Assembly: GCF_015751765.1 (NCBI RefSeq)
Contig: NZ_JADOTX010000001.1
Coordinates: forward strand, 372,001-436,000
Length of the DNA stretch: 64,000 nt
Origin: Micromonospora ureilytica
GTDB lineage: Bacteria; Actinomycetota; Actinomycetes; Mycobacteriales; Micromonosporaceae
Direction of reading: 5' to 3'
Shown here: in pieces, positions 6,343-10,642 of the stretch
Layout of the letters: each line of letters begins with the position of its first letter
How positions within the stretch are numbered: position 1 is the first letter of the stretch
Notes under the pieces: generated by a model
Databases searched by the model: none
Told to the model about the DNA's origin: nothing
What the model saw: only the letters and a program-made list of their open reading frames with translations
Program-made: the position numbers and the translations under genes

Positions 6343-7398
6343 TCATGGCCTCCGCGGCTCGTAGGGTGCGCGACCGTTGCCGGTGGCGGGGGGCCGGGTG
6401 TCGTACGGGTTGCGCTGCCGATCGTGGGGCAGCGGCAGGCGGTGCACCAGCTCGGAGACGATCGCGTCGGTGGTGCGCCGGGCGAGCTGCGCGTCGGCGG
6501 TCGGGATGATCCGGTGGGCGAGCACCGGCACCGCCAGGGCCTGCAGGTCGTCGGGGAGGACGTAGTCGCGCCCCTCCAGGGCGGCGACCGCCCGGGCGGT
6601 GCGCAGCAGTTGCAGGGTCGCCCGGGGGGACGCGCCGAGCCGCAGGTCGGGGGCCTCACGGGTGGCGGTGACCAGGTCGATCGCGTACTGCTTGACCGCG
6701 TCGGCGACGTGCACCTGCCGGACGGTGGCGATCAGCTGCCGGACGATGGCCGCGTCGGAGACCGCGCGCAGCTCGTTCAGCGGGTCGGTGGCGCCGTGCC
6801 CGTCGAGCATGGCCAGCTCGGCGTGGGAGTCCGGGTAACCCATCGCGATGCGGGCGGTGAACCGGTCGCGCTGCGCCTCCGGCAGCGGGTAGGTCCCCTC
6901 CATCTCGATCGGGTTCTGGGTGGCGATCACCATGAACGGGGTCTGGAGCTGGTACGTCACCCCGTCGACGGTGACCTGCCGCTCCTCCATGCACTCCAGC
7001 AACGCCGACTGGGTCTTCGGCGAGGCCCGGTTGATCTCGTCGCCGACCACCAGGTTGGCGAACACGGCACCGGGGCGGAACTCGAAGTCGTGCGTCTCCT
7101 GGTTGTAGACGCTGACCCCGGTGACGTCGCTGGGCAGCAGGTCGGGGGTGAACTGGATGCGCCGCACGGTGCAGTCGATGGACCGCGCGAGGGCCTTGGC
7201 CAGCTTGGTCTTGCCGACACCCGGGACGTCTTCGATCAGGAGGTGACCCTCGGCGAGCAGGACGGCCAGGGCGAGCCGCACGGTGGCGGTCTTACCCTCG
7301 ATGACCTGCTCGATGTTGGCCACGATGGCCTCGCTGGCGGCGCGGAACTCGTCGTGCGGCAACAGGCCGCCCACCTCGTCCCAGGTCTGTTGTGTCAC
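6343..7398 (-). CDS. MoxR family AAA+ ATPase
   Basis: 351 aa from GTG 7398. A GAGGAGGAGG tract lies just upstream. An in-frame GTG at 7422, 6 nt after TAGAGA, is an alternative leaderless start. Walker A is G-V-G-K-T-K (in E-D-V-P-G-V-G-K-T), Walker B is L-V-V-G-D-E-I-N-R-A, followed by sensor 1 (A-T-Q-N-P) and the arginine-finger region. MoxR ATPases act as chaperones for partner complexes containing vWA or DUF58 proteins. It is the first gene of the operon, with its stop 1 nt from the DUF58 start, so the two are probably co-translated. Confidence 0.93.
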   Translation of the reverse strand: MTQQTWDEVGGLLPHDEFRAASEAIVANIEQVIEGKTATVRLALAVLLAEGHLLIEDVPGVGKTKLAKALARSIDCTVRRIQFTPDLLPSDVTGVSVYNQETHDFEFRPGAVFANLVVGDEINRASPKTQSALLECMEERQVTVDGVTYQLQTPFMVIATQNPIEMEGTYPLPEAQRDRFTARIAMGYPDSHAELAMLDGHGATDPLNELRAVSDAAIVRQLIATVRQVHVADAVKQYAIDLVTATREAPDLRLGASPRATLQLLRTARAVAALEGRDYVLPDDLQALAVPVLAHRIIPTADAQLARRTTDAIVSELVHRLPLPHDRQRNPYDTRPPATGNGRAPYEPRRP

Positions 7399-7426
7399 GG
7401 GCCTCCTCCTCGTCGCCGTCACGGCA

Positions 7427-7440: not shown

Positions 7441-7634
7441 ACCTGGACCCGCCGTTGGGTTCGCGACGTCGAGCCTCGTTTGCCGCAGGAATCTCACTGG
7501 TCTCTCAGGCTAACCATGTTTGTCGTTATCGCCGACCCCCGCAGGTAGTCCGTCGGTTACGCACCGATATTCGCCAGCTCGGGGGAACGGGGTTCGCCCG
7601 ACGCGGGGGCCGGCAGGACGATCCGTGGGCAAGG
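7441..7634. other. Intergenic region between the moxR operon and the leuS leader
   Basis: No gene is seen. It carries the presumed divergent promoters. TAGCCT reads on the minus strand at 7507-7512 in a locally AT-richer stretch and could serve moxR. No recognisable T-box or known riboswitch core is present. Confidence 0.5.
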
Positions 7635-7640
7635 TACACT
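7635..7640 (+). promoter_or_regulatory. -10 box for the leuS leader transcript
   Basis: TACACT lies 7 nt before the ATG of the leader peptide. The transcript should start at or 1 nt before that ATG, giving a leaderless leader peptide. No good -35 is visible. Confidence 0.55.
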
Positions 7641-7647
7641 GCGGGGC

Positions 7648-7686
7648 ATGGCCGGAGTCTTCCTGCTTCTTACCGGGCCGTGCTGA
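7648..7686 (+). CDS. LeuS leader peptide, [12 protein letters not shown]
   Basis: Twelve codons and a stop encode [12 protein letters not shown], with three consecutive leucine codons (CTG CTT CTT) at 7663-7671. CTT is rare in this GC-rich genome, which would sharpen sensitivity to charged tRNA-Leu. A hairpin starts inside the 3' end of the reading frame and an intrinsic terminator follows. This is the layout of a ribosome-mediated attenuator. There is no ribosome site, but TACACT ends 7 nt before the ATG, so the message is probably leaderless. The role is inferred from architecture; translation is not proved. Confidence 0.68.
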
Positions 7687-7712
7687 TGCGCTGAACGCAG
7701 CGACAGCACGGC
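7677..7712 (+). promoter_or_regulatory. Leader hairpin (pause/anti-attenuator) of leuS
   Basis: GCCGTGCTG (7677-7685) pairs perfectly with CAGCACGGC (7704-7712), and an inner TGCG/CGCA stem extends it. The 5' arm overlaps the leader peptide's stop codon, so a ribosome stalled on the Leu codons would open the hairpin. The freed 3' arm abuts the terminator stem; CGCAG (7696-7700) can also pair with CTGCG (7721-7725) in the terminator loop. The switching details are inference. Confidence 0.55.
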
Positions 7713-7713
7713 G

Positions 7714-7739
7714 GCCCCTCCTGCGCGAGGGGCTTTTTT
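7714..7739 (+). terminator. Attenuator terminator upstream of leuS
   Basis: GCCCCTC (7714-7720), a 6-nt loop, GAGGGGC (7727-7733) and six T's form a textbook intrinsic terminator. Such a U tract is unusual in this GC-rich window. It lies 62 nt before the leuS start, so it must be read through for leuS to be expressed. Confidence 0.85.
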
Positions 7740-7801
7740 GTGCCCGCCGCCGGCCCGGCCCGGTGGTGCCGAGACGAAGCGAAGCGAAGCGAGGAGAGAC
7801 G

Positions 7802-10642
7802 ATGAGTGAGGCAGCCGCACCGGCGGGCGACATTCCCCCGTTCCGGTACACCGCGGCCCTGGCCGACGAGATCGAGATTCGTTGGCAGGACACCTGGGCG
7901 CGCGAGGGCACCTTCCACGCACCGAACCCGACCGGCCCGCTGGCCGACCCGACCCACCCCCGCGCCGGCGCGGAGAAGCTGTACGTGCTGGACATGTTCC
8001 CGTACCCCTCCGGGGCGGGCCTGCACGTCGGCCACCCGCTGGGCTACATCGGCACCGACTGCTACGCCCGCTACCAGCGGATGGCCGGCCGCAACGTGCT
8101 GCACGCGATGGGCTTCGACGCGTTCGGCCTGCCCGCCGAGCAGTACGCGGTGCAGACCGGCACCCACCCCCGGACCACCACTGTCGCGAACATCGAGCGG
8201 TACAAGGCGCAGCTGCGGCGCCTGGGGCTGGCCCACGACGAGCGCCGCTCGGTGGCCACCATCGACACCGACTTCTACCGCTGGACCCAGTGGATCTTCC
8301 TGCAGATCTTCAACTCCTGGTACGACCGCGACGCCGGCCGGGCCCGTCCTATCGCCGAGCTGATCGCCGAGTTCGAGGGCGGTAACCGGTCCACCCCGGA
8401 CGGCCGCGCCTGGGCCGAGCTGAGCGTCGCCGAGCGCCGCCAGGTCGTCGACGACCACCGCCTGGCGTACGTCTCGCAGGCGCCGGTCAACTGGTGCCCG
8501 GGGCTGGGCACCGTGCTGGCCAACGAGGAGGTCACCGCCGACGGCCGCTCCGACCGGGGCAACTTCCCGGTCTTCAAGCGCAACCTGAAGCAGTGGAAGA
8601 TGCGGATCACCGCGTACGGTGACCGGCTGCTGGACGACCTGGACAGCCTGGACTGGCCCGAGCCGATCAAGCTGATGCAGCGCAACTGGATCGGCCGCTC
8701 CACGGGCGCCCACATCGACTTCCCGACCAGCGCGGCGCCGGTGCGGGTGTTCACGACCCGCCCGGACACCGTCTTCGGCGCCACCTACATGGTGCTGGCG
8801 CCCGAGCACGAGCTGGTCGACACGCTGGCGCCGGGAACCTGGCCGAACGGCACGAGGGACGCCTGGACCGGCGGGCACGCCAGCCCCCGGGAGGCCGTCG
8901 AGGCGTACCGCAAGGCGGCGGCCGCCAAGACCGACGTCGAGCGGCAGTCCGACACCAAGGAGAAGACCGGCGTCTTCATCGGCGCGTACGCCACCAACCC
9001 GGTCACCGGCGGGCAGATCCCGATCTTCATCGCGGACTACGTGCTGGCCGGCTACGGCACCGGCGCGATCATGGCGGTGCCGGCGCAGGACGAGCGGGAC
9101 TGGGCGTTCGCCGAGGTCTTCGAGCTGCCCATCGTCCGTACCGTGCAGCCGGCGGAGGGCTTCGACGGCAAGGCGTACACCGGGGACGGTCCGGCGATCA
9201 ACAGCGCCGCGCCCGAGCGCGGCCTGGACCTGAACGGCCTGGGGGTCGCCGACGCCAAGGCGGCGATCATCGCCTGGCTGGAGGCGAACGGGCACGGCAC
9301 CGGCGCGGTGACCTACCGGCTGCGCGACTGGCTGTTCTCCCGGCAGCGGTACTGGGGCGAGCCGTTCCCGATCGTCTACGACGAGACCGGCGCGGCCATC
9401 GCCCTGCCGGAGGAGATGCTGCCTGTCGAGCTGCCGGAGGTGGACGACTTCTCCCCGAAGACGTTCGACGCCGACGACGCCAACAGCAACCCGGAGACCC
9501 CGCTGTCGCGGCGGCACGACTGGGTCGAGGTCGAACTGGACCTGGGTGACGGGCCGAAGCGCTACACCCGGGAAACCAACGTGATGCCGCAGTGGGCGGG
9601 CTCCTGCTGGTACGAGCTGCGCTACCTGGACCCGACCAACAGTGAGCGGTTCGTCGACGCGGAGAACGAGCGGTACTGGATGGGCCCGCGCGCCGAGGGT
9701 GACTGCGGGGGCACCGACCTGTACGTCGGTGGCGCCGAGCACGCCGTGCTGCACCTGCTGTACGCGCGGTTCTGGCACAAGGTGCTGTTCGACCTGGGGC
9801 ACGTGTCGTCGTTCGAGCCGTTCCGCAAGTTGTTCAACCAGGGCATGATCCAGGCGTACGCGTACACCGACTCGCGCGGCAGCTACGTGCAGGCCGAGGA
9901 GGTCTTCGAGCGCGACGGCGCCTACTACGTGGGCGATCTGGCGGTCAACCGCGAGTACGGCAAGATGGGCAAGTCGCTGAAGAACGTGGTGACCCCCGAC
10001 GACATGTGCGCCGCCTACGGCGCGGACACCTTCCGGGTGTACGAGATGTCGATGGGCCCGCTGGAGGTGTCCCGACCCTGGGAGACCCGGGCGGTGGTCG
10101 GTTCGTACCGGTTCCTGCAGCGGGTGTGGCGGGTCGTCGTCGACGAGCAGACCGGCGACCTGCGGGTCACCGAGGACCCGGCCGACGAGGCGACCCGCCG
10201 GCTGCTGCACAAGGTGATCGACGGGGTCCGTGGCGACATGGACGACATCCGGTTCAACACCGCGATCGCCAAGCTGATCGAGCTGACCAACGGGCTGACC
10301 CGCCTGTCGGCCACGCCTCGCGAGGTGGCCGAGCCGCTGGTGCTGATGGTGGCGCCATTCGCCCCGCACCTGGCCGAGGAGCTGTGGCGCAAGCTGGGCC
10401 ACGACACCTCGCTGACGTACGCGGACTTCCCGACCGCCGATCCGGCGCTGCTGGTGGCCGACACGGTGACCTACCCGGTGCAGGTCAACGGCAAGGTCCG
10501 TGGCCGCATCGAGGTCCCCGCCGACGCCTCCGAGGAGGCCGTTCGCGCGGCCGCCCTGGACGCGGTGGCGGCGACCCTGAACGGCAAGGAACCCCGCAAG
10601 GTCATCGTGGTCAAGGGCCGGATGGTCTCGGTCGTCGCCTGA
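7802..10642 (+). CDS. leuS: Leucyl-tRNA synthetase
   Basis: 946 aa. Charges tRNA-Leu with leucine. ATG 7802 was chosen because GAGGAGAG lies 3-10 nt upstream; the frame stays open further back through the attenuator, but that is not coding. The class I signature is H75-V-G-H78 and the KMSKS loop is K721-M-G-K-S725. The CP1 editing domain lies between (about 240-440), with T-T-R-P-D-T-V-F-G visible. The length fits bacterial LeuRS with a small actinobacterial insertion after the HIGH region. Expression is probably attenuated by leucine supply through the upstream leader. GAAGC is repeated three times at 7775-7790, just before the ribosome site. Confidence 0.98.

Follow-up and report, generated by a model that had tools for sequence, protein, structure and literature searches.

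What controls leuS, the leucyl-tRNA synthetase gene of Micromonospora ureilytica? We analyzed a window of 64,000 nucleotides (nt) from contig NZ_JADOTX010000001.1 (positions 372,001 to 436,000; coordinates below count from its first letter), in which direct reading of the sequence places a unit of ~95 nt between a divergent minus-strand gene and leuS. A preliminary description had taken this unit for a leaderless leucine leader peptide with a hairpin and a terminator, controlling leuS by trp-type attenuation. Our comparisons supported the core of that description, and re-reading confirmed its coordinates. We consider it likely that leuS is controlled here by ribosome-mediated transcription attenuation. 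The element is real and probably functional, and the switch very probably raises output of the enzyme when charged leucine tRNA is short.

All parts of the unit lie on the plus strand. A −10 box, TACACT (7635 to 7640), stands 7 nt ahead of the start codon and is not accompanied by a −35 consensus. The leader open reading frame (ORF), delimited by sequence reading and comparison across leaders, has 12 codons (7648 to 7686, ATG at 7648, stop TGA at 7684 to 7686). Its Leu codons, CTG CTT CTT, occupy 7663 to 7671, and the last of them (7669 to 7671) is the putative sensing codon. Eight nucleotides after the first base of that codon begins the 5′ arm of a 9-bp hairpin, here called P1 (GCCGTGCTG, 7677 to 7685), whose 3′ arm (CAGCACGGC, 7704 to 7712) covaries with it. 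Between the arms, folding places an inner stem-loop (7689 to 7702; CGCTG/CAGCG at 7689 to 7693 and 7698 to 7702) that differs among species. Adjoining P1 is an intrinsic terminator hairpin, T (7713 to 7734), seen by pattern scan, by folding, and in covarying pairs, with a U6 tract at 7734 to 7739 (sequence reading and pattern scan). The pattern scan called this terminator twice, in overlapping calls, vs. a mean of 0.4 in shuffled sequence. The minimum-energy fold of 7648 to 7742 contained P1, the inner stem, T, and a small 5′ hairpin at −47.3 kcal/mol, compared with −36 ± 3.4 kcal/mol for shuffles (z −3.3; 1 of 200 shuffles was as good).

To which leucine tRNA might such a leader respond? We built a covariance model from 46 leaders and took 143 of its matches. 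Five without the CCG anchor of P1 were dropped, as was L109, which was out of register, leaving 137 readable leaders, 133 of them distinct. The five were an antisense match in L040, L288 (no LeuS downstream, Ile codons), L265 and L274 (CCA instead of CCG, with CTT and CTC at the fixed place), and L246, which is cut by a contig end and has CTG there. In the readable leaders, the codon nine bases before the CCG of P1 was CTT in 128 and CTC in 9. The distinct leaders gave CTT 124 and CTC 9, and 33 representatives at <75% identity gave CTT 27, CTC 5, and one misregistered row. The preceding codon was CTC in 77 of 138 rows, CTT in 29, CTG in 28, and another codon in 4. As background, Leu codons of leuS genes are CTG at 84–92% and CTT at 0.1–0.8%. 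The preliminary description had called the two CTT codons rare, and in the window CTT indeed makes up 1 of the 208 Leu codons of four other genes and none of the 70 in leuS. Because tRNA-Leu(GAG) reads CUU and CUC, the fixed-place codon points to this tRNA. In the M. ureilytica genome, tRNA-Leu genes named by ARAGORN among the long ones of its 66 tRNA matches included at least two with anticodon CAG, at least one with TAA, and at least one with GAG.

The hairpin keeps a set distance from this codon. P1 began 8 nt past the first base of the fixed codon in 138 of the 143 matches, where the anchor requires CCG. In the 136 leaders used for spacer, T-loop, and pause counts (a script found no terminator in L228 and L277), the spacer between P1 and T was 0–4 nt in 134. 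The stop codon moved: its distance from the fixed codon was 5 codons in 93 leaders, 2 in 25, and 6–11 in 19. In many leaders, the last residues of the peptide are P-C or P-R, which would suit nascent-peptide arrest, with the ribosome halting at the stop codon, as in TnaC. However, 25 of the 137 leaders end two codons past the fixed Leu codon, their stop preceding the Pro codon, with the downstream RNA unchanged; in 19, the stop comes later than usual; and the exchange of C for R is accounted for by a compensatory change in P1. Since the stop codon shifts and P1 stays, the P-[C/R]-stop ending reflects a constraint on the RNA, and peptide-level conservation of it was ruled out. We therefore regard arrest by the nascent peptide as extremely improbable.

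Compensatory change in P1 and T among relatives, together with conservation of the Leu codons, was what the preliminary description had said would support it, and both were found. In a 91-leader alignment fitted to the structure, 12 of the 16 pairs of P1 and T changed on both sides, with 135 such cells vs. 16.5 after shuffling; slid controls gave at most 3 pairs. The first ~five bases of P1 (GCCGY) varied least, and most compensatory changes lay beyond them. An unfitted MAFFT alignment of 46 leaders showed both-side changes in 5 of 16 pairs, a level reached by 1 of 500 shuffles. A mutual-information scan that assumed no structure (omitting L287, L109, L131, L282, L230, L110, and L114) also ranked pairs of T and P1 at the top and revealed no clear third helix. 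The fixity of CCG in the scan alignment is by construction, given that the anchor demands it; without the anchor filter, the CCG pairs in the 91-leader alignment were CG in 90, CG in 91, and GC in 87 of 91. A weaker signal in the scan linked the base behind GAGGGG with a G in the tail after the U tract (0.33 vs. 0.46–1.21 for the leading pairs), and this is either an artifact of column layout or a hairpin possible only after read-through.

An RNA that binds leucine, tRNA, or a protein directly could in principle dispense with translation, and the limited sequence variation of the lower half of P1 (GCCG/CGGC) and of the T arms would be in keeping with one. The P1 loop, however, ranges from a few to about 60 nt, and the reading frame, start codon, and leaderless promoter are all maintained. 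Rfam yielded no match at its gathering score anywhere in the window, and the sub-threshold scores at 7500 to 7830 were all low. Direct binding is thus very improbable in our judgment.

How far does the element extend, and does it keep company with leuS? A DNA match across the unit was present in all 24 genus relatives searched, and when the sequence ahead of leuS was searched by pattern, 87 of 137 loci (L031 to L167) proved to have a leader, including 41 of the 80 named leuS loci. Leader-bearing named loci came from Micromonospora, Plantactinospora, Actinoplanes, Catellatospora, Hamadaea, Jiangella, Streptomyces, Actinacidiphila, Wenjunlia, Saccharopolyspora, Geodermatophilus, Blastococcus, Modestobacter, Knoellia, Micropruina, Occultella, and others; the Mycobacterium/Mycolicibacterium, Gordonia, and Corynebacterium loci of the named set had no leader by pattern or covariance model. 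Genome matches to the model were accepted at an E value of 0.001 or better, with stricter filters, and the family and class of the survey were read as Micromonosporaceae and Actinomycetes on the strength of the named leuS loci. By this measure, the element was detected in 117 of 121 genomes of the family, 162 of 393 genomes and 58 of 122 genera of the class, and 19 of 246 genomes of the phylum, five of these outside the class. In M. ureilytica itself, the leuS leader scored 95 bits and the next match only 17 bits, within noise at 16–17 bits.

We fetched 94 class-wide loci from the model matches, leaving out most of the f33 group, which has Streptomyces-like peptides and whose loci were already sampled. 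A LeuS gene followed on the same strand in 93 of the 94. These LeuS proteins fell into two types: 30 loci had ≥60% identity to the LeuS of the window and 63 had <55%, mostly 37–47% in the rows examined. In genomes with two leuS genes, the element stood before both in G113 and G114 and before the second type in G093. Its presence before two unlike LeuS types indicates that the leader follows leuS as a function rather than one LeuS lineage. This placement also argues against premature termination without regulation, or a separate role for a short leaderless RNA, in either of which the Leu codons would be incidental, as do the fixed-place CTT or CTC in all 137 readable rows and the Val, Leu, and Ile codons that replace them in similarly built ilvB and cimA leaders (described below). 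On the side of an incidental leader, T is strong in all ribosome states by folding, and one family member has T without the leader. Altogether, we find this alternative quite improbable.

The leaderless start proposed in the preliminary description is in keeping with the sequence: the 7 nt that separate the −10 box from the ATG are too few to hold a ribosome site. Leader starts were sought with TANNNT at 5–9 nt upstream, and in 135 of 137 readable leaders, this motif stood 6–7 nt ahead of the start codon (ATG in 88, GTG in 49). No −35 element was conserved among them; TTGA or TTGC occurred at its place in only 3 of 137. A pattern scan of the window returned no sigma-70-type promoter, in accordance with the scan pattern requiring a −35 box. 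The sequence thus suggests that transcripts in M. ureilytica start without an untranslated leader. TGCGN-like letters are common ahead of the −10 TANNNT in these leaders.

How, then, might the switch work? We infer both the stalling at the Leu codons and the direction of regulation. The transcript would begin at or beside the A of the ATG at 7648, and a ribosome would initiate on the bare 5′ end. When leucyl-tRNA(Leu, GAG) is abundant, the ribosome would complete the 12 codons and depart, P1 and then T would close, and the majority of transcripts would stop ahead of leuS. When this tRNA is uncharged, the ribosome would instead halt, its A site occupied by the last CUU. The front edge of a ribosome lies about 12 nt ahead of the A-site codon, as known from toeprints, and the halted ribosome would mask the first five bases of P1 (GCCGU). 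P1 could then not fully close, and more polymerases would read past T into leuS. Our best guess is that P1 serves as an RNA polymerase pause hairpin and as a helper that stacks on T, not as an antiterminator arm. At 10–12 nt behind P1, 125 of 136 leaders had a pause-like Y-G (mean 85 and maximum 98 in loop shuffles), as did 29 of 33 representatives (19 for shuffled loops). Because this test was picked after viewing the loops, the pause signal is only a lead.

Several observations weigh against this account. No mutually exclusive antiterminator was found by covariation or equilibrium folding, two approaches that a short-lived competitor could escape. At equilibrium, T forms at 0.97 on average in the stalled and released states alike; individual leaders deviate, such as L238, where T forms at 0.26 stalled vs. 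0.92 released. In the window, pairing of the 5′ arm of T is lower in the stalled state (0.15) than after release (0.42), a sign opposite to that expected. In the unfitted alignment, further pair types were no more numerous than in shuffles (385 of 500). L246 breaks the codon rule, reading CTT CTG CTG before P1 at its contig end, and 8 of 137 leaders have an additional Leu codon beyond the fixed place, which is thus strictly the last Leu codon in 129 only. Moreover, 231 of the 393 class genomes had no match, including all 20 listed genomes of family f8, and one member of the Micromonosporaceae (G069, locus L306) retains T, with the leader and P1 gone. Upstream of leuS in that genome, ACG stands where the leader start should be, and the Leu codons and P1 have apparently been lost. 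Finally, according to the part of Craster 1999 relayed in PMC1262725, codon changes in Streptomyces coelicolor had no effect for ilvB and none of the classical sort for leuA.

The missing antiterminator bears most directly on a classical trp-type switch, in which a ribosome on the Leu codons would free the 3′ arm of P1 to pair with the 5′ arm or loop of T (a 2:3 antiterminator) and thereby block T. We consider this explanation unlikely, yet it has points in its favor. In many members, base pairing is possible between GCRCGG of P1 and CUGYGY in the loop of T (89.8% of cells paired), with energies down to about −8 kcal/mol in Streptomyces-type members; L238 folds like such a switch; and Streptomyces leuS leaders were called classical, with antiterminator and terminator, by Seliverstov et al. 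2005 (PMC1262725). Folding tests, from which L287, L109, L131, L282, and L230 were excluded, also found the T 5′ arm more paired stalled than released in 99 of 131 leaders before the T 3′ arm emerges (means of 0.29 stalled, 0.18 released, and 0.34 at the stop codon). However, not one pair between the P1 3′ arm and the T loop changed on both sides, and at the middle pair, an A-C mismatch was the commonest combination (31 of 78). A T borrowed from another species folded at least as well in 100 of 100 shuffles, and in 300 of 300 for unusual loops, and T loops differ in many leaders.

The candidates for such an antiterminator were rejected individually. Pairing of the P1 3′ arm with the T loop showed no covariation and did no better than swapped partners. 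Species-specific antiterminators were set aside given that the stalled–released difference was small and in the wrong direction in the window. By eye, the Leu codons (CUYCUU) of many members could pair with GAGGGG in the 3′ arm of T, but this pairing is rich in G-U, would have the wrong sign, and was absent from the top pairs of the scan. The strict trp-type label of the preliminary description was therefore not upheld, as covariation, partner swaps, state folding, and the structure-free scan all failed to reveal an antiterminator that excludes T.

Does the same architecture serve other genes? Among second matches of the model in genomes of the family, the five that scored 31–37 bits all precede branched-chain genes: ilvB leaders ending V-L-I-I-stop (L298, L299, and L302) and leaders of cimA-like genes with L-I-I (L300 and L301). 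The five matches outside the class precede leuS once (L293), ilvB three times (L294, L295, and L297), and no nameable gene once (L296). A start with TANNNT at 5–9 nt was found for L293 and L297 and not for L294, L295, or L298 to L302. We named ilvB and cimA by reading of their proteins and used TIGR00118 and TIGR00977 for locus searches, in which 24 of 30 cimA loci showed a codon-run pattern, some of them unconvincingly, as did 6 of 29 ilvB loci; the M. ureilytica ilvB was not one of the six. By eye, its ilvB leader (L331, ending R-V-L-T-stop) and cimA leader (L353, ending V-L-I-I-A-T-stop) have the build of the leuS leader, with a P1-like GC hairpin and an abutting T-like terminator with a U tract. 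ATT recurs as the Ile codon of cimA leaders. Tentatively, one ancestral leaderless scaffold (codon run, fixed spacing, P1, and abutting T) may serve leuS, ilvB, and cimA by codon exchange, sensing the charging of a single isoacceptor of rare codons, tRNA-Leu(GAG) at CUU or CUC, and acting without an antiterminator by removal of the helper or pause hairpin; we hold this broader idea to be less likely than not.

The surroundings of the unit complete the picture. The leuS gene (7802 to 10642, plus strand, ATG at 7802) encodes 946 amino acids; its name rests on reading of the protein, and relatives, found by near-full-length similarity, align over nearly all of it. A purine-rich GAGGAG lies upstream of its ATG at 7791 to 7796, and short tandem CGAAG repeats occupy 7774 to 7793, just ahead of that site. 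The tail GTGCCC directly follows the U tract (7740 to 7745, plus strand), and RTGYCC(GG)-like letters take this place in the alignments of many relatives. The upstream neighbor (6343 to 7422, minus strand), a putative MoxR-type AAA ATPase by reading of its protein, is divergent from leuS, and the terminator can consequently act only on the leader-leuS transcript.

How much of this was already described? Attenuators of leuS in S. coelicolor and Streptomyces avermitilis were predicted by Seliverstov et al. 2005 (PMC1262725), and the accessible part of a 2021 study (PMC8079986) reports LeuL2 of Streptomyces lividans TK24, a 12-amino-acid peptide (MRAVRLLLSEPR) before leuS, as a leaderless transcript. 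The combination of such a leader with a tRNA synthetase gene, which the preliminary description had thought worth testing as unusual, is on these grounds not new, and the leader in the window belongs to a described kind. It has a run of Leu codons in an ORF directly before leuS, a hairpin and U-tract terminator between the two, and homology with the Streptomyces element. Streptomyces-type loci, such as L125, share the LeuL2 peptide, and their leaders align column by column with that of the window. The model scores LeuL2-type leaders at up to 83.5 bits, a value that is not independent because 6 of the 46 model-building sequences have MRAV-type peptides.

The Streptomyces attenuators share with the present element the Leu leader ORF, hairpins, and U-tract terminator before leuS; they were reported in two species with a classical antiterminator, whereas the present element is class-wide and its antiterminator unsupported (PMC1262725). 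LeuL2, reported as a leaderless transcript, shares the 12-amino-acid leader before leuS and a hairpin and uridines behind it, and differs in the N-terminus of its peptide; the accessible text of PMC8079986 makes no cross-species comparison. The LEU element, or LeuL1, before leuA also has a leader peptide with a run of Leu, and LeuL1 is reported as leaderless; by contrast, in the parts of PMC1262725 and PMC8079986 concerned, it has a pseudoknot over the leuA ribosome site and no typical terminator, and it precedes a different gene. The accessible part of PMC2965389 makes no mention of leuS.

Within the literature searched, where subscription papers were thinly covered, there was no class-wide survey, covariation, CUU/CUC rule, or cimA leader. 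An RNA-seq study of Actinoplanes, of the same family (Wolf 2017), might report a leuS leader, so an earlier description there is possible. What is apparently new is the breadth of the element, its covariation, the codon rule, and the occurrence of similar leaders ahead of ilvB and cimA. Earlier work had supplied a prediction in two Streptomyces species and one transcript map; the present survey makes of these a widespread RNA element with covariation, open to automatic annotation, and names the codon, and with it the tRNA, that should be sensed. Two questions can now be put to the test: how a terminator lying ~40 nt past the sensing codon comes under the control of a ribosome that begins at a bare 5′ end, and whether attenuation can proceed by loss of a helper hairpin in a leader that has no antiterminator. 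If our reading is true, leuS and the branched-chain genes ilvB and cimA would share one type of switch.

The trp and his attenuators of Escherichia coli combine regulatory codons, a pause-type first hairpin, and an intrinsic terminator with a ribosome-binding site and a defined 2:3 antiterminator. The leuS leader differs from them in its putatively leaderless start and in that no antiterminator, and hence no mutually exclusive pair of terminator and antiterminator, was found. It has in common with them the regulatory codons within a leader ORF, the pause-type first hairpin, and the intrinsic terminator.

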